The notes under the pieces are model-generated. The model was not told where the DNA came from and did no database searches. It saw only the letters and a list, made by a program, of their open reading frames with translations. Source: Anaeromyxobacter diazotrophicus (GTDB lineage: Bacteria; Myxococcota; Myxococcia; Myxococcales; Anaeromyxobacteraceae). From it: a stretch of DNA of 64,000 nucleotides. Numbering within the stretch: position 1 is the first letter of the stretch; each line of letters opens with the position of its first letter. Below, piece by piece: positions 18,697-45,724 of this stretch. The translations under genes and the position numbers were made by a program. The stretch is taken from the NCBI RefSeq assembly GCF_013340205.1, contig NZ_BJTG01000008.1:62001-126000 (forward strand), given 5' to 3'.

Positions 18697-19737
18697 ATGA
18701 GAGCCGTGGTCTACGAAGCCTTCCAGGGGACGCCCGAGCTCCGGACCGTGCCCGACCCCTCGCCGAGCCGGGACGGAGTCGTCCTCCGGGTCGGCGCCTC
18801 GGGGCTCTGCCGCAGCGACTGGCACGGCTGGATGGGTCACGACCCGGACATCCGCCTCCCCCACGTCCCCGGGCACGAGCTGGCGGGCGAGGTGGTCGCG
18901 GCCGGCGCGGAGGTCCGCCGCTGGCGAGCGGGCGACCGGGTGACCCTCCCCTTCGTCTGCGGCTGCGGCGCCTGCCCGGAGTGCGCGAGCGGGAACCAGC
19001 AGGTGTGCGACCACCAGTTCCAGCCCGGCTTCACCCACTGGGGCTCGTTCGCCGAGTACGTCGCCATCCGCTACGCGGACGGTAACCTGGTCCGCCTCCC
19101 GGAGGAGATGGACGACGTGACCGCCGCCAGCCTGGGGTGCCGGTTCGCGACCTCGTTCCGCGCGGTGGTGCACCAGGCCGCGCTCCGCGGCGGCGAGTGG
19201 CTCGCCGTCCACGGCTGCGGCGGCGTCGGCCTCTCGGCCATCCTGATCGGGCGCGCCCTGGGCGCGAGCGTGGTGGCGGTCGACGTCGGCGACGACCGGC
19301 TGCGGAGCGCCGCGGCGGCCGGCGCGAGCGCGACCGTGCACGGCCTCCGCGTCCCCGACGTCGCCCGCGCCATCCAGGAGCTCACCGGCGGCGGCGCCCA
19401 CGTCTCGATCGACGCGCTGGGACACCCGACGACCTGCTTCAACTCCGTCCGCAGCCTCCGGAAGCGCGGCCGCCACGTCCAGGTCGGCCTCATGCTCGCC
19501 GGCCACCGGCACCCGCCCATCCCCATGGACGAGGTCATCGCCAAGGAGCTTCGCCTCCTCGGCAGCCACGGCATGCAGGCCCACGCCTACCCGGACATGC
19601 TCGGGATGATCCAGCGCGGCGCGCTCGACCCGCGCCGCCTCATCGGCCGCCGCGTCGCGCTCGCCGAGTCCATCGAGGCGCTGCAGCGCATGGACGAGTT
19701 CGCCGGGGTGGGCGTCACGGTCATCGACCGGTTCTGA
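18697..19737 (+). CDS. Zinc-dependent alcohol dehydrogenase
   Basis: Medium-chain dehydrogenase of 346 residues. The catalytic zinc ligand Cys38 is in [10 protein letters not shown], and His60-Glu61 are in PGHELAGEV. The structural zinc site is Cys90, Cys93, Cys96 and Cys104 in [17 protein letters not shown]. The NAD-binding motif is [13 protein letters not shown]. The substrate is not evident. It starts at an ATG preceded by GGGAGAGGGG and is divergent from mmsA across 157 bases, so a shared control region is possible. Confidence 0.88.
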
Positions 19738-19758
19738 CTTTCCTGCCGCGGGCGCCGC

Positions 19759-20070
19759 TCACGCCGCCGCCGCGGCGCTGGCTGCCGCCCCGCCCGCCAT
19801 GGCGCGGCGGTAAGCCGCCACGCCGGCGTGGGTGGCGCGCTCGGGCGCCGGCGCGCGGGACGGCGGGGGCGCGGGAGGGCGCGAGCGCGCCGCGCGGTAC
19901 CAGCGCACGGTGCCGCGCGGCACCGGCGCCGCGCCGCGGCTCGCCTCGCGCGCCTCGGCCGTGAGCGTGACCTTCTCCGCGTGCGTGGCGGCGCGCGCTG
20001 CCTCGCCGTCGGCGGGCGCGGCGGCGGGGAGCGCGGGGAGCGCGCCGATGCGGGCGAGGTCGAGCGTCAC
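19759..20070 (-). CDS. Hypothetical Ala/Pro-rich protein
   Basis: A 103-residue frame with a GTG start. It is rich in alanine, proline and arginine, with a short stretch KVTLTAEAREASRG that resembles no domain I can name and an alanine-only C-terminus. It lies tail-to-tail with the alcohol dehydrogenase, 21 bases from its stop. AGAGG upstream of the GTG is a modest ribosome site. It could be a real lineage-specific gene or a chance frame in GC-rich DNA. Confidence 0.4.
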   Translation of the reverse strand: MTLDLARIGALPALPAAAPADGEAARAATHAEKVTLTAEAREASRGAAPVPRGTVRWYRAARSRPPAPPPSRAPAPERATHAGVAAYRRAMAGGAAASAAAAA

Positions 20071-20202
20071 GGGGTGCGGCGCCTCTGCCGCCGGCGCAGC
20101 CTACACGAGCGCGCGGGCGCGGGGCGTCCCCCGGCGGGCTGACGCCCCGCCCGACCCGGCCGCGACGCCCCGGGTCGGCGGCCCCTCACCCGCGCCGCAC
20201 AC

Positions 20203-21042
20203 CTACAGTCCGTCGAACGCCACCTCCTCGACCTCGAAGCGCGCGTACGGGAAGGGCCGCCCCTCGATGATCCAGCTCGCCTCCATGTGAAAGGGGACGA
20301 GCACGCCGTCCACCGGGCGGAAGTCGCCGGACGCGCCGTGGAACGGCGTCTTCACGCTCCGGCCGCCGCCGAGGTCGCGCTCCCGCTCGCCGCTCATCCC
20401 GGTCATGAGCCCGTCGGGGCCGAAGGCGAAGGTGGCGGTCACGGCGCGGCCGCCCACCGCCAGCGTGGCGCGGGCGTGGTCCGCGTCGATCGCCTCCCAC
20501 CGCAGGTGGCGCGCGTCGAGGAAGGCGGTCGGCATCCAGGCGAGCTCGCCGAGCAGCCGGAGCAGCGCGCCCTGGTCCAGCGCGGCGCCGCGCGCGCGCT
20601 GGAGCGTGACCGTGGACGCGAGCTTCACGAGCATCTCGCCCTCGCCGTCGACGGAGCGGTCCCGCGCGTCGATCCACAGCCCGGCCCCGGCCCGCACCCG
20701 CCCGTGCCAGACGAAGCCGGGCGGCGCGCTCGAGAGCCACTGCTCGCCGCGGATGGGCAGCCAGGGTTTGTCGAGCCCGGGCCGGAACGTGCCCCCGTGG
20801 CGGAGGTGCGCGGCGCGCAGCGGCGCGTGCCGCCCCGCCCCGGACACCTCCAGGTAGCGGCGCACCGGCGCCGGGAGGCCGTCGAGCTGCGGGCGGTGGG
20901 AATTCGGCGCGGAAGCGGCCGCGCGCGCCGCGAGCGCCGCGCCCTCCGCCGCGGCGCTCCGCTCGAAGCGCTCCCGCCGCTCCAGGACGAGCAGCGCCAG
21001 GGCCGCGAACACGGCGAGCGCGATCCCGATCCAGGTGGTCAC
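20203..21042 (-). CDS. Membrane-anchored unknown protein (DUF6544/DUF6920-like)
   Basis: A 279-residue protein with one N-terminal membrane helix (WIGIALAVFAALALLVL, about 4-20), a short helical linker, and then a soluble domain from about residue 55. That domain contains LPAPVRRYLEVSG, RHGGTFRPG, WLPIRGEQWL and HMEASWIIEGRPFPYARFE. The pattern resembles the uncharacterised family of LP.PV.RYL proteins; the family number is from memory and uncertain. The GTG start at 21042 is chosen because it places the helix at the N-terminus. Function unknown. Confidence 0.65.
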   Translation of the reverse strand: MTTWIGIALAVFAALALLVLERRERFERSAAAEGAALAARAAASAPNSHRPQLDGLPAPVRRYLEVSGAGRHAPLRAAHLRHGGTFRPGLDKPWLPIRGEQWLSSAPPGFVWHGRVRAGAGLWIDARDRSVDGEGEMLVKLASTVTLQRARGAALDQGALLRLLGELAWMPTAFLDARHLRWEAIDADHARATLAVGGRAVTATFAFGPDGLMTGMSGERERDLGGGRSVKTPFHGASGDFRPVDGVLVPFHMEASWIIEGRPFPYARFEVEEVAFDGL

Positions 21043-21437
21043 CGAGTGGCCCCTTCGCGCGCCGGGGGACGCGCGGCGCGGGCGCGATTCTACGCCGAGC
21101 CGCGCGATGCGGGCCGACGTTCGCCGGGCGCCCTGGTGAGCCGTCCAGCGCTTCTCGCCCTGCAGGCGCTCGCCTCCCCGGCCGCGTCGAAGATGGGGCC
21201 TGTCGCACCGAGCGGGCGAGCGCCTGGGCCATCGCCCGTACGCCGGCCGGACGATCGGTGAACCCCCCGCCCGCGTGAAATCTCCGCGGTCGCGGCCCTC
21301 TCGCACACCTTGTCCGCTGGTATGCGGCGGTGTGAGCGAAGGCGTGTGCTACACCCGCACCACCCCTCGGCCGGGGGGAACAGGCTCGCTCGGCGAGTCG
21401 TTCGGGGAGCGCAGGACCACCCCGAAAGGAGCCGCCC
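21043..21437. other. 395-base divergent intergenic region
   Basis: It separates the leftward membrane-anchored gene and the rightward DUF4091 gene and must hold promoters for both. AAAGGAG at 21424-21430 is the ribosome site of the DUF4091 gene. I see no convincing coding frame, tandem repeat or riboswitch. A stretch of reduced GC near 21285-21345 is the likeliest promoter area, but no -35/-10 pair stands out. Confidence 0.45.
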
Positions 21438-23336
21438 TTGCCGCCCGCCCGCCCCCTCCTGGCGCTCGCCGTCGCCCTGGCGCTGCCGGTCGCCGCGCGC
21501 GCCACCACCGTCTGGACGGCGACGGGGACCGAGAAGATCCGCCCCGGCGCGGCCGCCCGGGCCGACGCGGCGGGGACGCTCTCGGCCGCGAAGAACGAGT
21601 TCGAGGCGTTCCAGATCGCGGTGGTGGGCCCCGCCACCGGCGTCTCCGCGACAGCCACCGCGCTCACCGGGCCGGGCGTGATCGCGGCCCCGCGGCTCTA
21701 CCGCGAGGCGCTCATCGACCTCCAGTACGCGTCGGCCGCCGACGGCGCGACGGGCAGCTTCCCCGACGCGCTCATCCCGGACGTCGACGACGTGGTGGGC
21801 GAGAAGCGCAACGCGTTCCCCTTCGACGTGCCGGCCGGCCAGACCTGGGTGCTCTACGTCGAGGTGCACGTCCCACCCGGCGCCGCGGCCGGCGACTACG
21901 CGGGGACGGTGACGGTCCACGCCGCCGAGGGCGACGCGGTCGTCCCGGTGAAGCTCACCGTGTGGGACTTCGCGCTCCCCTCCACCTCGTCCCTGCGCTC
22001 GGCCTTCGGCGAGGGCGGCGCCGCCGCCCGGCACGCGCTCTCGGGCGACGCGCTCACCGCGCTCGAGACGCGCTACGCGCAGCTCGCGCTCGACCACCGC
22101 GTCTCGCTCCACGACGTGCGCGACGGCGCGAACCCGGACTGGGCCCACTTCGACCGGTGGTATGGGCCGCTCCTCGACGGCGCGATGCCCACCCAGCTCG
22201 CCGGGGCGCGGCTCACCTCGATGTCGAGCGGCGCCGACCTCGCCTCCGCGGCGCAGCACGCCGACTGGGCGGCGCACTTCAAGGCCAGGGGCTGGTTCGG
22301 CCGGCTCTTCCAGTACACCTGCGACGAGCCGCCCATCACCTGCGCCTGGTCGGACATCGCCGCCCGCGCGCAGAACGCGAAGCAGGCCGACCCGAGCTTC
22401 CGCACCCTCGTCACCACCGACGCCGCCCAGGCCACCCAGAACGGCGTGCTCGGATCGATCGACCTCATGGTGCCGGTCATCAACTACCTCGACGACCGGC
22501 CGTACGACGCCTACGGGTGGACCGCCGGCGGCGAGACGCGGCCCGCCTACGACGCCTTCCTCTCGGCGCCGGGCAAGGAGCTGTGGCTCTACCAGAGCTG
22601 CATGAGCCACGGCTGCGGCGGCACGGTGGACATCGGCAACCCCACCGCGAGCGACCTCTACTGGACCGGCTGGCCGAGCTACATGGTGGACGCGAGCGCG
22701 GTGCGGAACCGCGCCATGGAGTGGTTCAGCTTCCGGTACGGGGCGTCGGGCGAGCTGTACTACGAGACCACCCAGGCCTACTACGCGCGCGATCCCTGGA
22801 CCGGCGGGCTGTGGGACTTCACCGGCAACGGCGACGGCACGCTCTTCTGGCCCGGCACCCCCGACCGCATCGGCGGCACGACCGACATCCCGCTCGCCTC
22901 GCTCCGCCTCAAGCTCGTCCGCGAGGGAATGGAGGACTACGAGTACCTGAAGCTCCTCACCGACCTGGGCGGCGGCGACGAGGCGCAGGCCATCGCGAAG
23001 CAGCTCTTCCCGCACCCGTGGCAGTCGGACGCGAAGCCGGCCGACCTGCTGGCGGCCCGGGCGCAGCTCGCGGCGCGCATCGTGGCCCTCTCGTCCCAGG
23101 CCGCGCCGGCGGCGAGCTCGAGCGGGGCGGGGGGCTCGGCCGCGACCAGCTCCCCCGGCGGCTCCGCCGGCTCATCCGCGTCGGGCACCGCGTCCGGCGC
23201 GTCCGGCTCCGGCTCCGGCGCCGCGTCCGGCTGCGGCGCGGCCGGCGGCGACCCGGCCGGCCTCCTCACCTTCCTCGGCGGTCCGCTGGCGCTCGCCTGG
23301 CGGCGGCGTCGCCTCCGCGCGGGCGCGGCGCGCTGA
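21438..23336 (+). CDS. Secreted DUF4091 protein with MYXO-CTERM-like tail
   Basis: A 632-residue exported protein. The signal peptide (PLLALAVALALPVAARA) is followed by a beta-rich N-terminal domain and a TIM-barrel-like middle. The DUF4091 domain at the C-terminal side includes TCDEPP, YQSCMSHGCGG, GELYYETTQAYY, FTGNGDGTLFWPG and LRLKLVREGMEDYEYL. Glycosidase-like activity is suspected for this family but not shown. Residues about 560-632 are a Ser/Gly/Ala linker, a Cys-containing segment (GCGAAGG), a hydrophobic helix (LLTFLGGPLALAW) and RRRR, the layout of MYXO-CTERM surface-sorting tails. The TTG start is supported by AAAGGAG 8 bases upstream. Its 3' end overlaps the next, convergent, gene by 71 bases. 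Confidence 0.85.
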   Translation: MPPARPLLALAVALALPVAARATTVWTATGTEKIRPGAAARADAAGTLSAAKNEFEAFQIAVVGPATGVSATATALTGPGVIAAPRLYREALIDLQYASAADGATGSFPDALIPDVDDVVGEKRNAFPFDVPAGQTWVLYVEVHVPPGAAAGDYAGTVTVHAAEGDAVVPVKLTVWDFALPSTSSLRSAFGEGGAAARHALSGDALTALETRYAQLALDHRVSLHDVRDGANPDWAHFDRWYGPLLDGAMPTQLAGARLTSMSSGADLASAAQHADWAAHFKARGWFGRLFQYTCDEPPITCAWSDIAARAQNAKQADPSFRTLVTTDAAQATQNGVLGSIDLMVPVINYLDDRPYDAYGWTAGGETRPAYDAFLSAPGKELWLYQSCMSHGCGGTVDIGNPTASDLYWTGWPSYMVDASAVRNRAMEWFSFRYGASGELYYETTQAYYARDPWTGGLWDFTGNGDGTLFWPGTPDRIGGTTDIPLASLRLKLVREGMEDYEYLKLLTDLGGGDEAQAIAKQLFPHPWQSDAKPADLLAARAQLAARIVALSSQAAPAASSSGAGGSAATSSPGGSAGSSASGTASGASGSGSGAASGCGAAGGDPAGLLTFLGGPLALAWRRRRLRAGAAR

Positions 23337-25044
23337 GCGCTTCCGCCAGCGCGCGCCCCAGCTCGTCGTGCGCGGCGAGCCAGGGCCGCGCCTCGCGCGG
23401 GAAGCCGCGCAGGGAGGGCGCGAGCCGGGCGGCGAGCCGGTCCACCAGCCCGCCCAGCCCGGCCCGGCGCGCCAGGGCTGCCAGCTCGCGGTCCTCGATG
23501 GCGTCGCGGACGAGCTTGAGCCGGATCGACTCGACCGGGAACGGGTTCGCCCCGCCGAGCTCGCCCGGCAGGCCCGGGTAGAGGAGCGTCCCGTCGCCGT
23601 TCCCGGCGAACGCGCGCACGTCCCGCCACGGCTCGCGGGTCCACGCCTCGAGGGTCTGGTAATACAGCTCGCCCGCCACGCCGGCGCGCTCGGCGAGCCA
23701 GCCCAGCGCGCGCACGCTCGCGCCAGGGCGGTCCACCTCGTACCCGGGCCAGCCGGCGAACTCGCGCACCATCCGCTCGCGCGCGCGCCCCGCGGCCGGC
23801 AGCTCGTCGCACCCGTGGCTCAGGCAGGAGGCGTACCAGAACGGGCGCCCGTCCCAGCCGCCCGATCCGCCGCGGCGCGCGCCCGGGAACGCGGCCGGGC
23901 CCTTCCCGTCGAAGAAGACGAGGTTCGGCGCCCAGGCCTCGACCAGCCCCTCGAGCCCGGGGCGCGGCTCGCTCGTGACGAAGGTGCGCACGCCCGCCTC
24001 GCGCGCCGCCCGCGCCCGCCGCGCCAGCGCCGGCAGCTCGCCGGGCTTCGGCTCGTCGAGCGTGTAGAGCCAGAGCGCCCCCTCCCAGCCGCGCGCCTGG
24101 AAGTGCTCGCGCCAGGCGCGCAGGAGCGCCACCTGATCCGCCAGCGGCGCCTCCCAGTCGCGGGCGCGGACGCGCGCGTCGGCGAAGGTGCCGCGCACGC
24201 CGGGCACGAGCGTGCCGTCGAGGATGGGCCCGACCTCGGCGTCGTAGGCGCTCCAGTCGAGCGCGCAGCGCGCCGCGGTGCAGTCGCCGGCCGGCGGGTC
24301 GTAGCTGAGCCCGTGCGGCGAGACGCGGTGCCGCAGCAGCGCGGCGGCGAGGGCGCGCGCCAGGACCGGATCGTCGGGGCGGCCGAGCGCCTTCGTGCCG
24401 ACGCGCGTCGGGAGGCCGAAGGTGACCGTGTGCGCGCTCGTGGCGGGGAGCGCGAACGGCCACACCTCGAGCCGCACCGGCACCTCGGCGAGCGCGCGGG
24501 CGCCGTCGGCGAGCCGGACCGCCCCGCGGTAGCGGCCGGGCGCGGCGCCGGCCGGGACGCACAGCTCGACCCAGATCGCCTGCAGCCGCCCCGCCGGGAC
24601 CGCCACCGGGAACGCGCGCCGCGGCTCGCCGAAGAAGCCGTCGCGGACCGGCACGAGCGGGTCGGGCCAGGCGCCGCGCGCGCCGTCGGGGCCGGAGGGC
24701 GCGGCGAGCTCCACCGTCGCGACGCGGTAGAGGGCGGGCGCGAGGGCGGAGGGGCCGGCCAGCGCGGGCGCCTCGGCCGTGAGCGCGGCGAGGGGCCGCG
24801 CGGCGCGCACCGCGATCTGGGCCGACTCGCACTCCCCGCGCGCGGCGGAGAGCTCGATGGCGCGCCCCGGCGGCAGCGGGTCCCCCGGCCGGAGCTTGTC
24901 GAGGGCGCCGGCGGTCCCGAAGACCCCCGGCGCGGCCGGGGCCGCGGCGGCGAGGAGCGCGGCGGCGAGGAGCGCGAGAGCCACGCCGGGAGGGTGGGCA
25001 CGGGCCCGGGGCGCCGCAGGGCGCCACCCGCGGCCACGCCTCAT
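23266..25044 (-). CDS. Secreted DUF4091 protein, paralogue without sorting tail
   Basis: A 592-residue paralogue of the facing gene. Matching blocks are YTLDEPKPGEL, YASCLSHGCDEL, GELYYQTLEAW, FAGNGDGTLLYPG and IRLKLVRDAIEDREL. It has a long basic N-terminus and then a hydrophobic signal segment (VALALLAAALLAAAAPAAP), but no C-terminal membrane helix, so it is probably released or periplasmic whereas its partner is anchored. The ATG at 25044 has no good ribosome site, so a later start before the hydrophobic stretch is possible. The two genes overlap tail to tail at 23266-23336. Confidence 0.82.
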   Translation of the reverse strand: MRRGRGWRPAAPRARAHPPGVALALLAAALLAAAAPAAPGVFGTAGALDKLRPGDPLPPGRAIELSAARGECESAQIAVRAARPLAALTAEAPALAGPSALAPALYRVATVELAAPSGPDGARGAWPDPLVPVRDGFFGEPRRAFPVAVPAGRLQAIWVELCVPAGAAPGRYRGAVRLADGARALAEVPVRLEVWPFALPATSAHTVTFGLPTRVGTKALGRPDDPVLARALAAALLRHRVSPHGLSYDPPAGDCTAARCALDWSAYDAEVGPILDGTLVPGVRGTFADARVRARDWEAPLADQVALLRAWREHFQARGWEGALWLYTLDEPKPGELPALARRARAAREAGVRTFVTSEPRPGLEGLVEAWAPNLVFFDGKGPAAFPGARRGGSGGWDGRPFWYASCLSHGCDELPAAGRARERMVREFAGWPGYEVDRPGASVRALGWLAERAGVAGELYYQTLEAWTREPWRDVRAFAGNGDGTLLYPGLPGELGGANPFPVESIRLKLVRDAIEDRELAALARRAGLGGLVDRLAARLAPSLRGFPREARPWLAAHDELGRALAEALSAPRPRGGDAAARRAPADRRGR

Positions 25045-25115
25045 CCGGGCGCCGCGCGCGGGGAGCCGCGGGCGCCGCCGTCCCCTATGTTCCGCCGCGA
25101 GCCAGGAGGTCCCCC

Positions 25116-25535
25116 TTGCGCACGCTCCGCCTTGGCCTCGCCGCCGCCCTCGTCGCCCTCGCCTGCAGCCACCGCCCGGCGGGCCCTCCCGCGCCGCCCG
25201 AGGCCACCGCGCCCCCGCCGCCCGGGGTCGCGCGGGTGTGGCACGGGCGCGTCCAGGCGGAGAAGGCGGACGCGTACGCCGCCTACCTGGCGAGCGCCAT
25301 CACCAAGTTCCGGACCCTCCCCGGTAACCTCGGCTACGAGCTGCTGCGCGAGGACGGAGGCGCCGAGACGCACTTCATGGTCGTGAGCTACTGGACGACG
25401 GCGCAGGCCATCCACGCCTACGCGGGCGACGACATCTCCCGCACCCGGGCGCTGCCGCGCGATCCGGAGTTCCTCGTGGACCCGGAGCCGCTGGTGCACA
25501 ACTACCGGGTGGTCGTGCAGGACCTCGCCCGCTGA
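25116..25535 (+). CDS. Lipoprotein with ABM-like (dimeric alpha-beta barrel) domain
   Basis: A 139-residue protein with a lipoprotein signal peptide; the lipobox ending in Cys17 (ALVALAC) is followed by a Pro-rich linker to about residue 42. The rest resembles the antibiotic-biosynthesis-monooxygenase fold: HGRVQAEKADAYAAYL, LPGNLGYELLRED, HFMVVSYWTTAQAI. Many members bind haem or quinone-like molecules, but some are inert. A TTG start at 25116 follows AGGAGGT at 25104-25110. Confidence 0.7.
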   Translation: MRTLRLGLAAALVALACSHRPAGPPAPPEATAPPPPGVARVWHGRVQAEKADAYAAYLASAITKFRTLPGNLGYELLREDGGAETHFMVVSYWTTAQAIHAYAGDDISRTRALPRDPEFLVDPEPLVHNYRVVVQDLAR

Positions 25536-25589
25536 GGCGGGCCGGCCACCCCCTACGTCCGGCGGGCGCCGGTCGGGTATGCTGCGCCC

Positions 25590-25967
25590 GTGCCGTGTGC
25601 CCTCGTCGTCGACGACTCCGCCAGCCAGGTGCTCGGCATCGCCGCGGCGCTGACGCGCGCGGGCTACGCGCCCGTGCACAGCGCGGTGGACTGGGCCGAG
25701 TGCCGGCGCGCGCTCGCCCGCGACGTCCCGGCGCTCATCGTGCTCGACGTGACGATGCCGGGCATGGTGAGCGGCGACGTCATGGCGATGCAGCTCCGCC
25801 GGAACCCGCGCTGCGTCGGGGCGCGCCTGGTGCTCTACTCGGGGCTGCGCGAGCACGACCTCGCGGTCCTGGCCGAGCGGTGCGGAGCGGACGCCCACCT
25901 CCGCAAGGGCGACGAGGCCGCGCTCGTCGCGCTGTGCAAGCAGCTCGTCCCGCCGGAGGTCCCGTGA
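25590..25967 (+). CDS. Single-domain response regulator (CheY-like)
   Basis: A 125-residue receiver domain with no output domain. The acidic pair is Asp8-Asp9, the phospho-acceptor is Asp53 in IVLDVTMPGM, the Thr/Ser switch is Ser84 (LVLYSG) and the conserved Lys106 is in HLRKGD. Its stop overlaps the GTG of the bacteriohemerythrin gene by 4 bases. This suggests that the two proteins are made together and that oxygen or redox state is linked to the signalling output, by inference. The GTG start at 25590 has no strong ribosome site. Confidence 0.9.
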   Translation: MPCALVVDDSASQVLGIAAALTRAGYAPVHSAVDWAECRRALARDVPALIVLDVTMPGMVSGDVMAMQLRRNPRCVGARLVLYSGLREHDLAVLAERCGADAHLRKGDEAALVALCKQLVPPEVP

Positions 25968-26386
25968 GCACGCTCGACCCGGACGCGCTGCCCGAGGTGG
26001 CGGTGGCGTTCATGAACGCCGATCACCGCGAGGAGGCGCGCCGGCTGGTCGCCCTCACCGAGGCCCTGTCGGCGCTGAGCCAGGGACGGGGCGATCGCGG
26101 CGAGGTCGTCCGCCGGTGGACGGCGCTCGTGCAGCACACCCGCGAGCACTTCGCCCGCGAGGAGCGCGCCATGGAGCAGACGCGCTTCCCGCCGCGCGAC
26201 GTGCACCGGGCCGAGCACGAGCTGGTGCTCTCCGCCATGGAGACGGAGGAGCAGGCGTTCCTCCAGGACGGCGACGCGGCGCGCCTCGCCCGCTACGTGG
26301 ACCGCGCGCTGCCCGACTGGCTCCGCCGCCACATCGAGACGATGGACCTCGTGACCGCGCGCTTCCTGGCCGCCCGCGGCGCGTGA
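25964..26386 (+). CDS. Bacteriohemerythrin
   Basis: A 140-residue di-iron oxygen-binding protein. All seven ligands of the family can be placed: a His in FMNADH, HxxxE in EHFAREE, HxxxH in VHRAEH and HxxxxD in RHIETMD. Such proteins carry or sense oxygen in microaerobic bacteria. It is translationally coupled to the response regulator in front of it (GTGA overlap). The GTG start at 25964 is chosen because of that overlap. Confidence 0.9.
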   Translation: MSTLDPDALPEVAVAFMNADHREEARRLVALTEALSALSQGRGDRGEVVRRWTALVQHTREHFAREERAMEQTRFPPRDVHRAEHELVLSAMETEEQAFLQDGDAARLARYVDRALPDWLRRHIETMDLVTARFLAARGA

Positions 26387-26420
26387 GCCGCTGGCGGCCG
26401 GCGCTCGGCTCAGGGCCCGC

Positions 26421-27128
26421 TCACGGACGGCCGGCGGAGGTCCGCCGGCGCGGCGCGGGGCGGGGCGACTTCACGCCCAGGAAGACGACGTGCCGCGCCC
26501 CCGCCGAGCCGGCGCGCGCCGGCGCGGGCACCGCCTCGGCCGCGAAGCCGGCCCGCCGCAGCGCCGCCAGGTAGCGATCGTCGGGGCCGGCCGACCACAC
26601 CGCCAGCGCGCCCCCGGGCTTCAGCGCCTCGAACGCCAGGTGCACGCCGGCCTCGCCGTACAGCCGCTCGTTGCGGCCGTGGACCAGCGCCGACGGCCCG
26701 TTGTCCACGTCGAGCAGGATGGCGTCGAAGGCGCGGGTCGCCTCGGCGATGCGGTCCGCGACGTCGGAGACCTGGAGGCGCACGCGCGGGTCGTCGAGCG
26801 GGCGGCCGGCCAGCGCCGACACCGGCCCGCGGTTCCAGTCCACGAGCGCCCGCGACAGCTCCGCCACGATGACGCGCGCGCCGGCGGGCACGCGGTCGAG
26901 CACCGCGCGCACCGTGTAGCCGAGCCCGAGGCCCCCCACCAGCACCGTGTCGCGCCGGGCCGCGCGCTCCAGCCCCAGCGCCGCCAGCCCCTCCTCGGAG
27001 CCGTGGGCGCGGGACGACACCAGCACGTGGCCGCCGGCCCGCACCACCCACTCCGCGCCGCGCCGCGCCAGCACGAGCTCCGTGCCGTCCGGCGCGAGCG
27101 CGCGATCGATCGTCTCCCAGGGCTTCAT
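26421..27128 (-). CDS. Spermidine-synthase-like methyltransferase-fold protein
   Basis: A 235-residue protein of the polyamine-synthase Rossmann fold. Residues about 60-80 form the nucleotide-binding loop (VLVGGLGLGYTVRAVL), IVAELSRALVDWN is the following acidic strand, and FDAILLDVDNGPSALV is the catalytic-side loop. The N-terminal tetramerisation beta-hairpins of true SpeE are abbreviated. It may be an aminopropyltransferase-like or unrelated methyltransferase-fold enzyme. The ATG start at 27128 is the most plausible; an upstream Met would add 20 residues. Confidence 0.7.
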   Translation of the reverse strand: MKPWETIDRALAPDGTELVLARRGAEWVVRAGGHVLVSSRAHGSEEGLAALGLERAARRDTVLVGGLGLGYTVRAVLDRVPAGARVIVAELSRALVDWNRGPVSALAGRPLDDPRVRLQVSDVADRIAEATRAFDAILLDVDNGPSALVHGRNERLYGEAGVHLAFEALKPGGALAVWSAGPDDRYLAALRRAGFAAEAVPAPARAGSAGARHVVFLGVKSPRPAPRRRTSAGRP

Positions 27129-27252
27129 CGGGGCGGCAGGATACCCCGAGACCCGGGCCGGCGCACACCCTGCGCCCTCCTCATACACGCTGCGTGATGG
27201 CCGGGCCGCGCGGCTCTGCTAGACTCGCCGGCCACGCAGCGCGGGAGGGGTC

Positions 27253-27918
27253 TTGCGCAGACGAGTTCTGGTGGTGCTGCTGGCGCTGCTCGGCGCGGGC
27301 TGCATGTCGACCGCCCGGGTGAGGCCGGACGCGGACCGGTGGCGCCGGGGCGTGAAGACGGTGGCGGTGCTGCCGTCCATCCGCGTCTACGAGGTGTCGG
27401 CCGGCGAGGTTCGGGAGCAGCGCGACGACTGGTCCGCGGAGGGCACCCGCCTCGTGGCGGACGCGCTCTCGGCCGGCCTGGCCGAGCGGGGCCTCACCCC
27501 GCGCGTCCTCGACCCCAAGGCGGAGAAGGCCGACCCGGAGCTGCGGGAGGTCCGCCTGCTCTACGAGGAGGTGAGCCTGGGCGTCTACCTCCTCGCCTAC
27601 CCGCCCTTCGCCTCGCGCCACGTGCTCGAGCACTTCGACTACGAGGTGGGGTCGCTCGAGCGCGTGCTCGAGCGCGCCCGCGCCGACGCCCTGCTCGTCG
27701 CCTACGGCAAGTCCAACGTCTCCACCACCGGGCGCGCCATCACCCGCGCCCTCTTCGGCGGACAGTCCGACTTCAACCTGCTCACGGTGGGGCTCCTCGA
27801 CCGCAAGGGCCACCTGGTGTGGTTCGACCTGGCCGGCGCCGAAGACCTGCGCGACCCCGGGACCGTGGGGCGCGCGGTGGCGGGGCTCCTCGACCGCCTG
27901 CCGGGGGAGGACCGGTGA
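27253..27918 (+). CDS. Lipoprotein, unknown
   Basis: A 221-residue lipoprotein with lipobox LLGAGC ending in Cys17. The mature part contains VKTVAVLPSIRVYEV, which resembles the opening of GNA1162- or LpoB-like outer-membrane accessory lipoproteins, and a later RADALLVAYGKSNVSTTGR. No family can be named firmly. A TTG start at 27253 follows GGGAGGGG. It overlaps the M48 protease gene by 4 bases (GTGA), so it is the first gene of a coupled set of three. Confidence 0.72.
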   Translation: MRRRVLVVLLALLGAGCMSTARVRPDADRWRRGVKTVAVLPSIRVYEVSAGEVREQRDDWSAEGTRLVADALSAGLAERGLTPRVLDPKAEKADPELREVRLLYEEVSLGVYLLAYPPFASRHVLEHFDYEVGSLERVLERARADALLVAYGKSNVSTTGRAITRALFGGQSDFNLLTVGLLDRKGHLVWFDLAGAEDLRDPGTVGRAVAGLLDRLPGEDR

Positions 27919-29646: not shown

Positions 29647-30870
29647 ATGCGCCTCCACGCCCGGCTCCTCCTCGCCTCGCTCCTGCTCTCCGCCGGCGGC
29701 TGCTCGTGGTTCTGGCCGACGGTCGTGCGCACCTCGCCGCGCGAGCCGCTGTTCCACAGCGGGTTCCCGCTGGTCGGCCCGGCGCGGCTCGACGGCGCGC
29801 TCTGCTCGCTCGTGACGCTCGGCCCCGACGCGCTGGCGGTGGTGGAGCCGCCCGAGCCGCTCGACCGGGCGATCCCGCTCGAGCGCGCCTGCCCGGACGC
29901 GCGGTCGAGCGGTGAGGGATGGCCCAATCGCGCGCCGCCCCTCGTCCGCCTCGAGACGCCCCACGGGCCGGTGCACGGGTACCTCCACGCGCCGAAGTCG
30001 GCGACGGGTCTCCTCGTCGCCTTCAGCGGCCTCGGGATGCCCGCCTCGGGCTGGGTGAACGAGCGCTTCGCGGAGGTCGCGGCGCGCTCCGGGCTCGCCA
30101 CGTTCGCGCCGGTCCGCGACGAGGCGGCGCGCCCGATCTGGTTCGACCCGCGCCGCGAGGCGACGCGCGCGCTCGACGCTGCCGAGCAGATCGCGAGCGC
30201 GTGCGCGATCGAGGATCCGCGCCGGCTGGCGTTCGTCGGCATCTCCATGGGCGGGCTCGAGGCGCTGCTCGCGAACCGCGAGGCGCTCGGGCGCGGCCTG
30301 GACACCCGGGCGGCGGTCCTCGATCCGCTGCTCGACTTCGCGCTCGTCGCCGACCACCTCGACAGCTTCTGGCACCCGCTCGCGGTGGACGCGGTGCAGG
30401 CCTACTTCCGGCGCATCCTCGCCGGCCGCTACGGCGAGGACCCGGCGCCCAGCTTCCGCGAGGTGCTGCGCCGCACGGCCGCGCACCCCGAGGCGATGAC
30501 CGACCCCGTCGCCGACGCGCCGCCGCGGTGGCTGTGCGAGGCGCGGCGCGAGGCGTACCTCGTCTTCTTCTCCGAGGCGGACCCGGTGCTGGGCGACGGG
30601 CAGCGCGAGTTCGCGCGCGCCTGCCGCTTCCCGACCCGGCCTGCGGGCGCGCCGGGACACACGCCGCTCGCCTGCCGCCCGGAGCTCTTCGAGGAGCTGG
30701 TCCGCGGGGCCGTGGCGCGGCCCCGCGTGGCCTGCCCCGGCTCACTTCTTCGCGGGCGCGAACCCGAGGAACGTGCCGAGCGCGGAGGGGTTGAGGCTCG
30801 TGAGCAGGCTGATCCTCACCTCCGACGGATCGCCCGGCGGCCCGATCCCGCGATCGACCTTCATCCGTAG
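29647..30870 (+). CDS. Alpha/beta-hydrolase-fold lipoprotein
   Basis: A 407-residue protein with a lipobox-like signal ending in Cys19 (LLSAGGC). The soluble part has LLVAFSGLGMPASGW and the nucleophile elbow GISMGGLEA, as in serine hydrolases; a late GAPGHTPL holds the probable catalytic His. The last 43 residues (30742-30870) are read from DNA that is also the 3' end of the convergent repeat protein, are Arg/Glu-rich and look unlike the rest. They may therefore be a chance extension. It follows the protease operon by 32 bases. Confidence 0.72.
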   Translation: MRLHARLLLASLLLSAGGCSWFWPTVVRTSPREPLFHSGFPLVGPARLDGALCSLVTLGPDALAVVEPPEPLDRAIPLERACPDARSSGEGWPNRAPPLVRLETPHGPVHGYLHAPKSATGLLVAFSGLGMPASGWVNERFAEVAARSGLATFAPVRDEAARPIWFDPRREATRALDAAEQIASACAIEDPRRLAFVGISMGGLEALLANREALGRGLDTRAAVLDPLLDFALVADHLDSFWHPLAVDAVQAYFRRILAGRYGEDPAPSFREVLRRTAAHPEAMTDPVADAPPRWLCEARREAYLVFFSEADPVLGDGQREFARACRFPTRPAGAPGHTPLACRPELFEELVRGAVARPRVACPGSLLRGREPEERAERGGVEAREQADPHLRRIARRPDPAIDLHP

Positions 30871-32655
30871 CAGCAGGCGCACCCACTTGCTCCCGAACGA
30901 CGGGACCTCGATCTGGCCCTCGGCGTAGACGCGGTTCTGGTTGGCGCCCCTCCAGAACTGGTCGTTCGCGTACCCGGCCTCGACGAAGCCGCGCGTGTTG
31001 CCGAAGCTCTCGGCCGGCTCACCCGCGTTGTAGCCGAGGACCTGCATCCGGAGCCCCGTGAAGAGGCGGCCGCGGACGTCCGTCTTGTCGCCCGAGATGA
31101 GGCTGCGCATCCCGGCGCCCAGGACGGGGGCGAGCCACGGCTGGTGGCTCTCCTTCGCGCCGGCGAGGAACGGGAACGACGACCTGCCGTCGAGGTCGAG
31201 CAGGGCCCGCCCTGCGACGTCGAGCGTCGTGCCGCCGGTGTTGAGGAAGGAGGTCTGCGTGGCGCCGGGCGGCGGCGTCTGGAGCACCTCCACCTTCGTG
31301 AGCCGCAGGTCGACGTCCCCGCTGAGCCAGCTGAGCCAGCGCGAGTTGGCGTTGAGCGCCGCCTCGACGTGCGACGCGAACGAGCCGGCGGCGTCGAGGG
31401 CGAACGCGGCGCCGACGTCGATGGCGAGGTGGTGCTGCTCGAGCACGACCACGTCCTCGATCCGGACCCGGCCCGAGCAGTCCTGCAGCCCGGTGAACTC
31501 GACCTGGACGCGCCCGCCGTTCTCGAGGAGCTGCGCGTCCTGGTTCTCGAAGTCGACTCGGAAAACCTGCTCCTCGCAGCCGTTGGCGTCCCCGCTGGCG
31601 CAGCGCCGGAAGTACGCCACGTCCTTGAACTCGGCGAGCGGCCGGTCCTTCGAGAGGATGCGGATGGACGGGAGCTCCCTCGCGTCCCGCGTGCTGGCGA
31701 CGCGCTCCAGCGTCGACGGCTCGACGGGGGCGAACTTGGCGTTGGTCGTCATGAACGATCCGTGGGTGCCGATCCACCGGAACGTCACGACCGGCGGCAC
31801 GCAGCGCGTGGCGACGGCCTTGAAGTCCATCGCCGGGACGTCCTCGTCCTTGACCGTGACCGTCGCCGCGGCGGGCGTGAAGAGGTAGCCGTCCGCCGAC
31901 GGCTTGACGGTGTAGGTCCCGTTCGCGAGGTTCCGGATCTCGTACCTGCCGGAGGAACTCGAGGTCGCGCTCGCGCTGTTGCTTCCGCTCACGGTCAAAG
32001 TGATCCCGGACACCACCGCCCCGGAGATCGTACCCGAGATGGCGTGCGGCTCCGTCTTGTCCGCCACGAAGTCCACCCCGGGGACGTCCTCGCGGCTCAC
32101 CACGATCCGCGTGCTCGCCGGGGTGAACACGTACTCCTTGCTGGACGGGGCGACGGTGTACGCGCCGGGAGGCAGCTTCGCGAAGCTGAAGGCGCCGTTG
32201 GCATCGGACTTCGTGCTCTTCGTGCCGTCGCCCGTGGTGAGCGTGACCGCGACGTCCTTCTTCGCGGCGCCCGAGATCGTGCCCGACACCGCGTAGCTGG
32301 CCGGGGCGAGGGCCGACGCGACGAGGTCCGGGGCCGTGCCAGGAGCGCCCCCCCCGACGGACACGTCCGCGCTCGCGGGCGCGAACACGTACCCCGCCAG
32401 CGCGGGCGTCACCTTGTAGGCCCCCGCCGCGAGCCCGTCGAAGGCGTAGTTGCCGGCCGCGTCGGTGACGGTGACCTTCGACGGGACGCCCGCGCCCGGC
32501 AGCGCGATCGTGACACCTGCGACGACCGCACCGGTGACCTTGCCGGTGAGCGTGAACGTCGGCGCCGGCGCCGGCGCCGGCGGGGCGGGGGCCGGGTCCA
32601 CCGCCGCGGCCACGAGGGGGAGCAGCGCGAAGCACCAGGCGAGACCTCTTCTCAT
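30742..32655 (-). CDS. Envelope protein with three carboxypeptidase-like regulatory repeats
   Basis: A 637-residue exported protein. After a signal peptide and a Pro/Ala linker come three beta-sandwich repeats of about 85 residues each (about 33-115, 120-205 and 206-290). Each follows the plan G.V.GA...V.....G....T.A.G.Y.F..L..G.Y.V.P...GY.F.P (for example TGKVTGAVVAGVTIALPGAG). These resemble the CarboxypepD_reg / Big-like modules of surface proteins. The C-terminal half (about 300-637) is rich in short strands, contains a FLNTGGTTLDVAGRALLDLDG region, and may form a beta-barrel or adhesin-like domain. GGAGGAG precedes the ATG at 32655. Confidence 0.75.
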   Translation of the reverse strand: MRRGLAWCFALLPLVAAAVDPAPAPPAPAPAPTFTLTGKVTGAVVAGVTIALPGAGVPSKVTVTDAAGNYAFDGLAAGAYKVTPALAGYVFAPASADVSVGGGAPGTAPDLVASALAPASYAVSGTISGAAKKDVAVTLTTGDGTKSTKSDANGAFSFAKLPPGAYTVAPSSKEYVFTPASTRIVVSREDVPGVDFVADKTEPHAISGTISGAVVSGITLTVSGSNSASATSSSSGRYEIRNLANGTYTVKPSADGYLFTPAAATVTVKDEDVPAMDFKAVATRCVPPVVTFRWIGTHGSFMTTNAKFAPVEPSTLERVASTRDARELPSIRILSKDRPLAEFKDVAYFRRCASGDANGCEEQVFRVDFENQDAQLLENGGRVQVEFTGLQDCSGRVRIEDVVVLEQHHLAIDVGAAFALDAAGSFASHVEAALNANSRWLSWLSGDVDLRLTKVEVLQTPPPGATQTSFLNTGGTTLDVAGRALLDLDGRSSFPFLAGAKESHQPWLAPVLGAGMRSLISGDKTDVRGRLFTGLRMQVLGYNAGEPAESFGNTRGFVEAGYANDQFWRGANQNRVYAEGQIEVPSFGSKWVRLLLRMKVDRGIGPPGDPSEVRISLLTSLNPSALGTFLGFAPAKK

Positions 32656-32793
32656 GGACTCCTCCGAGGGGGCGGGCACGCCGCGCCCGGCGGGTCCGAC
32701 CCGCCGGGCGGCGCGCACCGGGAAGCGCCAGGCGGAGGATGTTAGCTGACCGTTACAGTCACGGCGAGCGGAAAGTGACGCTGGGTGGAGGCA

Positions 32794-44938: not shown

Positions 44939-44960
44939 CGCGCGCCGGGCGCGTCAGCTC
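44932..44960. terminator. Bidirectional terminator overlapping two stop codons
   Basis: A perfect 12-base-pair palindrome, GAGCTGACGCGC at 44932-44943 with GCGCGTCAGCTC at 44949-44960, encloses a 5-base loop. It contains the TGA of the plus-strand membrane protein and, on the other arm, the TGA of the minus-strand ferredoxin. It would terminate both convergent transcripts. Confidence 0.7.
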
Positions 44961-45724
44961 ACGCGCGAGACGACGCTGCCCGCGATCCCGACCGTCGCCA
45001 CCTCGAGCGGCGCGGCGTGCCCGGAGAGCGCCAGCGCCTGCCGGACCGCCGCGGCGATCCCGTTGCAGCAGGGGACCTCCATCTTCACCACCGTCACGCT
45101 GCGCGGCTGCGCGCGGCGGAAGGTCTCGGCCAGCTTCGCGGCATAGGCGGAGAGGTCGTCGAGCTTGGGGCAGCCGACCAGCACGCGGCGGCCGGCCAGG
45201 AAGTCGTCGTGGAAGCGGGCGTAGGCGAAGGGGACGCAGTCCGCCGCGACGAGCACGTCGGCGCCGCGGAGGTAGGGGGCGTCGGGCGAGACGAGGTGGA
45301 TCTGCACCGGCCACTGCCCGAGCTTGCTCCCCCCCTCCGGCACCAGCGGCGGCGGCGCCTCGGTCACGATCGAGAGCCGGGGCCGGGCGGCCGGCCGAGG
45401 CTCGGACACCGGCGCGAGGGTCCGCGGGCGCGCGCCGGGGCAGCCCAGCTCGGCCGGCGAGGGCGCCACGGTGAGCGCGGGGCGCGGGTGCGCCGCGTGC
45501 GCCTTCACGGCCGCCTCGTCGAACGCCGGCGCCTCGCGCCGCGTGACCTTGAGCGCGCCCTTCGGACACTCGCCCAGGCAGGCGCCGAGGCCGTCGCAGA
45601 GCGCGTCGTCCTTGAGCCGCACCTTGCCGCCCTCGAGGTAGAGCGCCCCCTCCGCGCAGGAGGGGATGCACTGGCCGCAGCCGTCGCACTTCGACTCGTC
45701 GATCTCGAGGATTTCGCGGATCAT
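44954..45724 (-). CDS. 4Fe-4S ferredoxin-type protein with C-terminal domain
   Basis: A 256-residue protein. The N-terminal 60 residues form a two-cluster ferredoxin fold: Cys13, Cys16, Cys19 and Cys23 in SKCDGCGQCIPSCAEG, and Cys43, Cys49 and Cys53 in LCDGLGACLGECP. In the second set Leu46 stands where a fourth cysteine is usual, so the second cluster may be 3Fe-4S or be ligated differently. A Pro/Ala linker leads to a C-terminal domain (about 130-256) with QIHLVSPDAPYLRGADVLVAADC, VGCPKLDD and VPCCNG, which has further cysteines. It is probably an electron carrier or iron-sulfur sensor. Function unknown. Confidence 0.82.
   Translation of the reverse strand: MIREILEIDESKCDGCGQCIPSCAEGALYLEGGKVRLKDDALCDGLGACLGECPKGALKVTRREAPAFDEAAVKAHAAHPRPALTVAPSPAELGCPGARPRTLAPVSEPRPAARPRLSIVTEAPPPLVPEGGSKLGQWPVQIHLVSPDAPYLRGADVLVAADCVPFAYARFHDDFLAGRRVLVGCPKLDDLSAYAAKLAETFRRAQPRSVTVVKMEVPCCNGIAAAVRQALALSGHAAPLEVATVGIAGSVVSRVS

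Follow-up and report, generated by a model that had tools for sequence, protein, structure and literature searches.

Two predicted GH123-type glycosidases meeting tail to tail in Anaeromyxobacter diazotrophicus: anciently separate subfamilies and a link to DUF3108 genes

In the present study, we analyzed two open reading frames (ORFs), A and B, that meet tail to tail in a 64,000-nucleotide stretch of the Anaeromyxobacter diazotrophicus genome (NCBI RefSeq assembly GCF_013340205.1, contig NZ_BJTG01000008.1, positions 62,001 to 126,000 of the forward strand; hereafter the window). A and B belong to two GH123-type subfamilies that separated long ago, and both subfamilies are found order-wide. B-type genes normally sit between two DUF3108 genes, and in the window genome these two DUF3108 genes abut on another contig with B missing from between them. 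The homology, the fold, the catalytic residues, the family split, the DUF3108 linkage, and the empty site were all obtained directly by computation; from these we infer the activity, the substrate, the surface anchoring of A, and the accidental character of the overlap. We think it probable that the whole of our account holds, in which A and B belong to GH123-type subfamilies, A is anchored on the cell surface, B has moved out of the DUF3108 trio, and the overlap of the two genes is incidental. The activity of A and B is largely known at the family level, and what was computed here is their homology, fold, and catalytic residues; the novelty lies in the DUF3108-GH123-DUF3108 trio, which occurs across the order, and in the enzyme having left it in the window genome.

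ORF A (21438..23336, plus strand) starts with TTG, 6 bp ahead of which lies a likely ribosome-binding site (GAAAGGAG, 21424..21431, plus strand), and encodes a 632-residue GH123-type glycosidase with a signal peptide and a C-terminal sorting tail. ORF B (23266..25044, minus strand) starts with ATG and encodes a GH123-type glycosidase of 592 residues, which has an N-terminal segment that looks signal-like by eye and neither a sorting tail nor a lipobox. An initial annotation of this DNA had placed the two ORFs and their 71 shared bases (23266..23336, both strands) exactly. A mis-set stop codon, which would remove the overlap, was not found; both stops are TGA and both frames stay open. As had also been described, the plus strand of the overlap encodes the hydrophobic helix and Arg cluster of the A tail, and the minus strand encodes the final 22 residues of B. 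The two proteins, presented there as related, are homologous by sequence (BLASTP, 37% identity over 521 aligned residues, E 1e-76, far above chance) and by fold (see below), and the blocks GNGDGTL, SHGC, GELYY, and a central DEP are indeed common to both.

The pair had been attributed to a gene duplication by inversion, and our trees contradict this. Among the 83 homologues of our first tree, 54 A-type rows are parted from 29 B-side rows by a single branch with 100% support in the Shimodaira-Hasegawa-like approximate likelihood ratio test (SH-aLRT), and each side draws on eight families of the order. In a second tree, which had 46 hand-picked rows and included named records, a clade consisting mostly of Acidobacteriota falls between the A and B types. 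Both trees are quick ones, in which some branches are weak. The 83 rows were drawn from 85 distinct homologues, two short or locus-end-cut rows being omitted; window B was entered at full length in place of the cut locus copy, and the second tandem A copy of genome G001 (contig C114) was pooled with its neighbour instead of entering the tree by itself. One sequence (L045), although nearer A by BLAST, grouped with the B-side rows in the tree and is counted as B in the DUF3108-linkage and tail counts. In the 83-row tree, window A is closest to a second copy in the same genome (contig C13) and to one of G001, and window B is the sister of the G001 B. One possible explanation of the pair is a local inverted duplication, after which the copies specialised as surface-anchored and free enzymes acting together; the 37% identity, the tail-to-tail layout, and a sorting tail found in A-type and not in B-type proteins would agree with it. 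However, A and B lie on opposite sides of the fully supported branch, both sides are order-wide with the Acidobacteriota-rich clade between them, the ancestral site of B is elsewhere and is empty in the window genome, and the pair is contiguous in no other of 24 family genomes. A local inverted duplication is ruled out by both trees, the A and B types being anciently separate across the order, and as an explanation of the system it is extremely unlikely.

The locus was compared in other Myxococcota, as the initial annotation had proposed. In a DNA search of the 24 family genomes, the A-B stretch was contiguous only in the window genome, which argues against the two-part system of A and B suggested there; B-type genes sit between DUF3108 genes instead. 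In all nine family loci outside the window genome, B adjoins a DUF3108 gene, with a SurA/PpiD-like gene, mreC, and a PBP2 gene nearby (names assigned from the sequences) and maf in six. With the DUF3108 profile, at least one such gene was found beside 25 of the 29 B loci, and on both sides in 17. A survey of named records covered 80 loci and yielded 47 clear B copies. Co-directional DUF3108 genes flank 32 of these on both sides and 10 on one side; three copies have a single DUF3108 gene in opposite orientation, and two have none. A DUF3108 neighbour was seen for none of the 19 clear A copies and for one of the 17 intermediate copies. Here, a copy counts as clear B when its score favours the B profile by 150 bits or more, and as clear A when it favours the A profile by 100 bits or more; we set these limits ourselves. 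Because the 29-locus set and the named set overlap (L104, for instance, is the locus of G020), counts from the two must not be summed. In Myxococcus xanthus AM003 (L147, 3072-6516), the trio lies near maf and an alanine racemase-like gene.

In the window genome itself, the two DUF3108 genes abut on contig C6 (145229-147025; L097, 8230-10026), the stop of one being followed by nine bases and the ATG of the other; B is absent and the neighbourhood is intact. B is present in the window, on a contig other than that of the DUF3108 pair. This arrangement might be an assembly artefact, in which B was misjoined to A and truly lies between the DUF3108 genes or comes from another strain, and the occurrence of the junction in one genome only would be in keeping with that. 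However, both sites are deep inside contigs (C8, 312,593 bases; C6, 356,337 bases), the assembly has a completeness of 100% and a contamination of 0.07, nine bases separate the DUF3108 genes at the C6 site, which is closed, and both frames are open through the overlap. Thus, we regard a misassembly as very improbable.

Two further arrangements were observed. In three genomes (G019, G004, and G009), one B-type and one A-type gene share a chromosome at a distance of about 33-35 kb and point apart in all three. The members of the intermediate clade, mostly Acidobacteriota (L108, L110, L112, L121, L129, L132, L140, L157, and L163), are without DUF3108 neighbours.

The overlap looks like an accidental by-product of the move of B, because B would have lost its own end there and now reads into the DNA of the A tail. 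Past the last shared column, window B has 33 residues, its sister 13, and the other family orthologues 14-21; the overlap corresponds to about 20 extra B residues that orthologues lack, and the C-terminal end of B has a low predicted local distance difference test (pLDDT) score in the model. The last 22 codons of B (23269..23334, minus strand) form this run-on tail, antisense to the A tail. On the simplest reading, the move cost B its native end, and its frame now continues to the next stop; that the strand antisense to the A tail is open would be chance. An alternative possibility could be a functional overlap, such as antisense control exerted on one gene through transcription of its partner. 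The genes are convergent, and no terminator-like site was found in 21250-25250 (promoters likewise none), which would agree with such control. However, the overlap was found in one of the 24 family genomes, the overlapping residues of B are absent in orthologues and modelled at low confidence, and Rfam gave no match in 20000-27000; a functional role is quite improbable.

PF13320, formerly DUF4091, is now named GH123_cat in Pfam. In PMC11087588, the source of the solved structures matched below, DUF4091 proteins are described as beta-N-acetylgalactosaminidases or hexosaminidases with nine strictly conserved residues, and CAZy is said to have widened GH123 to take them in. The earlier statement that the activity is unknown is thus outdated, the domain being GH123_cat and the relatives including characterised beta-N-acetylgalactosaminidases. 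All 25 B-type members tested matched PF13320 at E up to 0.01. For both A and B, the top sequence match with a solved structure was 8k2f, an oligosaccharide-releasing beta-N-acetylgalactosaminidase (single-sequence E 3.2e-30 for A and 5e-20 for B; with family profiles, 1.9e-69 and 2.7e-47). AlphaFold2 models of A and B had pLDDT values of 86.8 and 90.0, respectively. In Foldseek searches with both models, ranks 1-22 were all GH123-type enzymes, followed by a drop in E-value of more than 10 orders of magnitude; the best was 8k2f/8k2g (NgaCa; E 1.6e-37 for A and 8.3e-34 for B). Both models have the beta-sandwich and (beta/alpha)8 barrel fold, with template modelling scores (TM-scores) by target length of 0.58-0.79 over these ranks. 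Structure prediction, which the initial annotation had called for with a lack of similarity as grounds for rejection, thus gave similar GH123-type folds for the two proteins.

The nine conserved residues, in the numbering of NgaLy, were mapped through profile alignments to structures and through the spacing of Y392, G427, and W431 given in PMC11087588. The family alignments comprised 37 of the 54 A-type rows and 25 of the 29 B-side rows, hand-picked for spread. The catalytic Asp-Glu pair of A (CDEPP; 22323..22328, plus strand) and that of B (LDEPK; 24052..24057, minus strand) align to the DE of 8k2j and 8k2h, and the pair is present in all 37 A-type and all 25 B-type rows. A and B both keep D95, D327, E328, Y392, G427, and R478; the DE pair, Y392, and R478 are invariant in all aligned rows, and position 431 is always aromatic. 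A loop with a Cys pair is also shared, SC-MSHGC in A (22599..22616 from the first to the second Cys, plus strand; both Cys invariant, 37/37) and SC-LSHGC in B (Cys pair at 23809..23826, minus strand; invariant, 25/25). In these alignments, the catalytic machinery is intact, but the substrate pocket differs from that of every characterised group. A and B most likely cleave beta-linked N-acetylgalactosamine (GalNAc) in polysaccharides by substrate-assisted catalysis with the Asp-Glu pair. Since the nearest enzyme releases oligosaccharides, our best guess is that they cut inside a polysaccharide that contains GalNAc.

The MYXO-CTERM-like tail of A (23232..23333, plus strand) consists of a Cys (23232-23234), a hydrophobic helix, and an Arg cluster, with a helix at residues 596-610 in the model. 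By a simple pattern of these three elements, such a tail occurs in 44 of the 54 A-type rows and in none of the 29 B-side rows; in the A-type alignment, the column of the tail Cys holds the Cys in 31 of 37 rows and a gap in 6. TIGR03901 at E up to 1 matched 12 of the 37 A-type members, window A not being among them. The myxosortase MrtX (NF040593) is encoded in the same genome, on contig C6 (191.3 bits; cut-off 180). In M. xanthus, MrtX cleaves MYXO-CTERM proteins and leaves them surface-bound, and such proteins are said to be few (three to six, for example) in the genomes of Anaeromyxobacter and the like (PMC11980579). Since the tail recurs in A-type rows and the genome has MrtX, A is likely to be anchored on the surface. 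The initial annotation had described one protein as anchored and the other as released. The first part agrees with the tail being an A-type trait and with the presence of MrtX. The second part is unsupported, because a signal peptide alone takes a protein of a Gram-negative bacterium to the periplasm only, and because 2 of the 29 B-side rows have a lipobox. The B-type N-termini of L077 and L078 carry the lipobox LAAC, and thus some Anaeromyxobacter may have B-type enzymes that are lipoproteins.

Other observations concern sorting tails. Same-strand A-type pairs, a few kb apart, occur in L085 (G001, C114), L060 (G021, C154), and L089 (G022, C1), and in L060 and L089 one A-type gene of each pair is without a sorting tail. 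Beside mrtX on contig C6 of the window genome, a 1353-residue ORF (L098, 1415-5476) has a MYXO-CTERM-like motif in mid-protein, followed by a second extracellular-looking part; internal MYXO-CTERM motifs are mentioned in the myxosortase paper (PMC11980579).

In the account that we favour, A would be exported by its signal peptide, most likely cleaved by MrtX, and stay on the cell surface. B would be exported to the periplasm or beyond and have no anchor, its normal seat being the co-directional DUF3108-GH123-DUF3108 trio. In the window genome, B would have quit the trio, leaving its two DUF3108 genes side by side on another contig, and settled with its tail against that of an A copy. It would have lost its own end there and come to read about 20 residues into the A-tail DNA. 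A and B would thus be tail to tail because B left its usual gene cluster.

Several results weigh against this account. The relocation is known from one genome assembly, with the junction in one of 24 family genomes. In the stretch covered, a DUF3108 neighbour is lacking from 4 of the 29 B loci and from 2 of the 47 clear B copies, and a search of the DUF3108 profile against solved structures gave nothing significant in the PDB. The PF13320 scores are marginal, at 23.2 bits for A (just over the cut-off of 23.1) and 22.2 bits for B (just under). The tail of A, recognised in the initial annotation as MYXO-CTERM-like, is seen by eye as Cys, helix, and Arg cluster, but TIGR03901 gave it 14.0 bits (E 0.47; cut-off 20) and an NCBIfam search of the window A protein matched nothing. 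Furthermore, A and B both have Tyr in place of W431 of NgaLy, a substrate contact that is strictly conserved among the enzymes compared in PMC11087588, and in A the NgaLy domain-interface residues W115 and Y466 are replaced by Tyr and Trp, respectively.

Because position 431 is Tyr, A and B are placed in the GH123 superfamily and in none of its five characterised groups (GH123 sensu stricto and Groups 1-4); because positions 431, 115, and 466 differ, specificity cannot be transferred and the activity of A and B is predicted only. B keeps W115 and Y466. A thus swaps the interface aromatic pair, and Trp at Y466 is unique to window A among the 37 A-type rows. An alternative possibility is that the fold was kept and the activity changed, with another sugar such as beta-N-acetylglucosamine (beta-GlcNAc) as the substrate, or with one of A and B binding only. 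In line with this, position 431 varies in both families (Tyr 24, Trp 12, and Phe 1 of 37 A-type rows; Tyr 12, Phe 12, and Trp 1 of 25 B-type rows), and NgaAt, of the same superfamily, also takes beta-GlcNAc (PMC11087588). However, the invariant DE pair, Y392, and R478, the constant aromatic at 431, and the best fold and sequence match, a beta-N-acetylgalactosaminidase, make a changed activity fairly unlikely.

Gene movement most likely brought A and B together by accident, and we consider the trio a better lead than a two-part system of A and B. The trio is kept across myxobacteria including M. xanthus, and it ties DUF3108, a domain of unknown function, to a glycosidase of likely activity; since M. 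xanthus is genetically tractable, the function of DUF3108 becomes directly testable. No paper came up in our literature search when DUF4091 was paired with Myxococcus or GH123 with Myxococc; a fungal secretome paper was the one match when DUF3108 was paired with glycoside hydrolase, and within these searches the trio was not found described. DUF3108 proteins are described as outer-membrane beta-barrel proteins of the YmcC fold (PDB 3FZX) in PMC4364669. The coat of glycerol-induced M. xanthus spores is reported to be 75% carbohydrate, two-thirds of which is GalNAc (PMC2875238), and thus a natural substrate may be at hand. Tentatively, and as an idea that we ourselves hold to be doubtful, the trio could form an envelope module in which a pair of DUF3108 proteins holds a GalNAc-containing surface polysaccharide, such as that of the spore coat or an exopolysaccharide, or presents it, for trimming by the GH123 enzyme. 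A-type enzymes, myxosortase-anchored, might act likewise outside the cell, and the window genome would be a natural experiment in which the enzyme is gone from the module.

The surroundings of A and B in the window were also inspected. When 38 crude gene calls of the window were compared with the loci of 20 relatives, only A, B, and one unrelated match (the gene at 44954-45724, in L087) were found as conserved neighbourhood. The neighbours encode an FAD oxidoreductase, an aldehyde dehydrogenase, an alcohol dehydrogenase, a DUF6544 protein, an antibiotic-biosynthesis-monooxygenase-like protein, a response regulator, and an M48 peptidase; with no polysaccharide locus among them, they were dropped as a clue to function. 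The flanking genes were also dropped as empty-site markers for the A-B pair, their homologues being scattered in relatives. Repeats of at least 18 nucleotides in 19700-27300 were G+C-rich matches and paralogue similarity, the longest inverted repeat pair (126 nucleotides, 73%) falling over the shared GNGDGTL region, and no insertion sequence was seen there in the repeat scan for signs of mobile elements. Farther along, a 658-residue protein (30742-32718, minus strand) with several carboxypeptidase regulatory-like (beta-sandwich) domains is likely to be a surface protein.

Among known systems, the best match of A and B by sequence and fold is NgaCa of Cohnella abietis (8k2f/8k2g, Group 1; PMC11087588), with which they share the beta-sandwich and barrel, the DE pair, and the equivalents of Y392, G427, D95, and R478. 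They differ from NgaCa in identity (22-24%), in the Tyr at W431, and in a longer loop after Y392 with the invariant Cys pair (SC..SHGC), where NgaCa is gapped; A, furthermore, carries a sorting tail. NgaDssm (8k2j, Group 3) and NgaAt (8k2h, Group 2) are the next best matches with the DE pair aligned, although their identity to A and B is 17-21% in fold alignments and they represent other substrate-pocket groups (PMC11087588). The A/B subfamilies are distant GH123 relatives with an invariant Cys pair and an altered substrate-contact residue. With MYXO-CTERM/MrtX sorting (TIGR03901, NF040593; PMC11980579), the tail of A likewise shares the Cys, the helix, and the Arg cluster, in a genome that has MrtX, although its score remains at 14.0 bits against the cut-off of 20. 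Finally, DUF3108 proteins (PF11306) flank B-type genes across Myxococcota, including M. xanthus, but do not stand beside window B.

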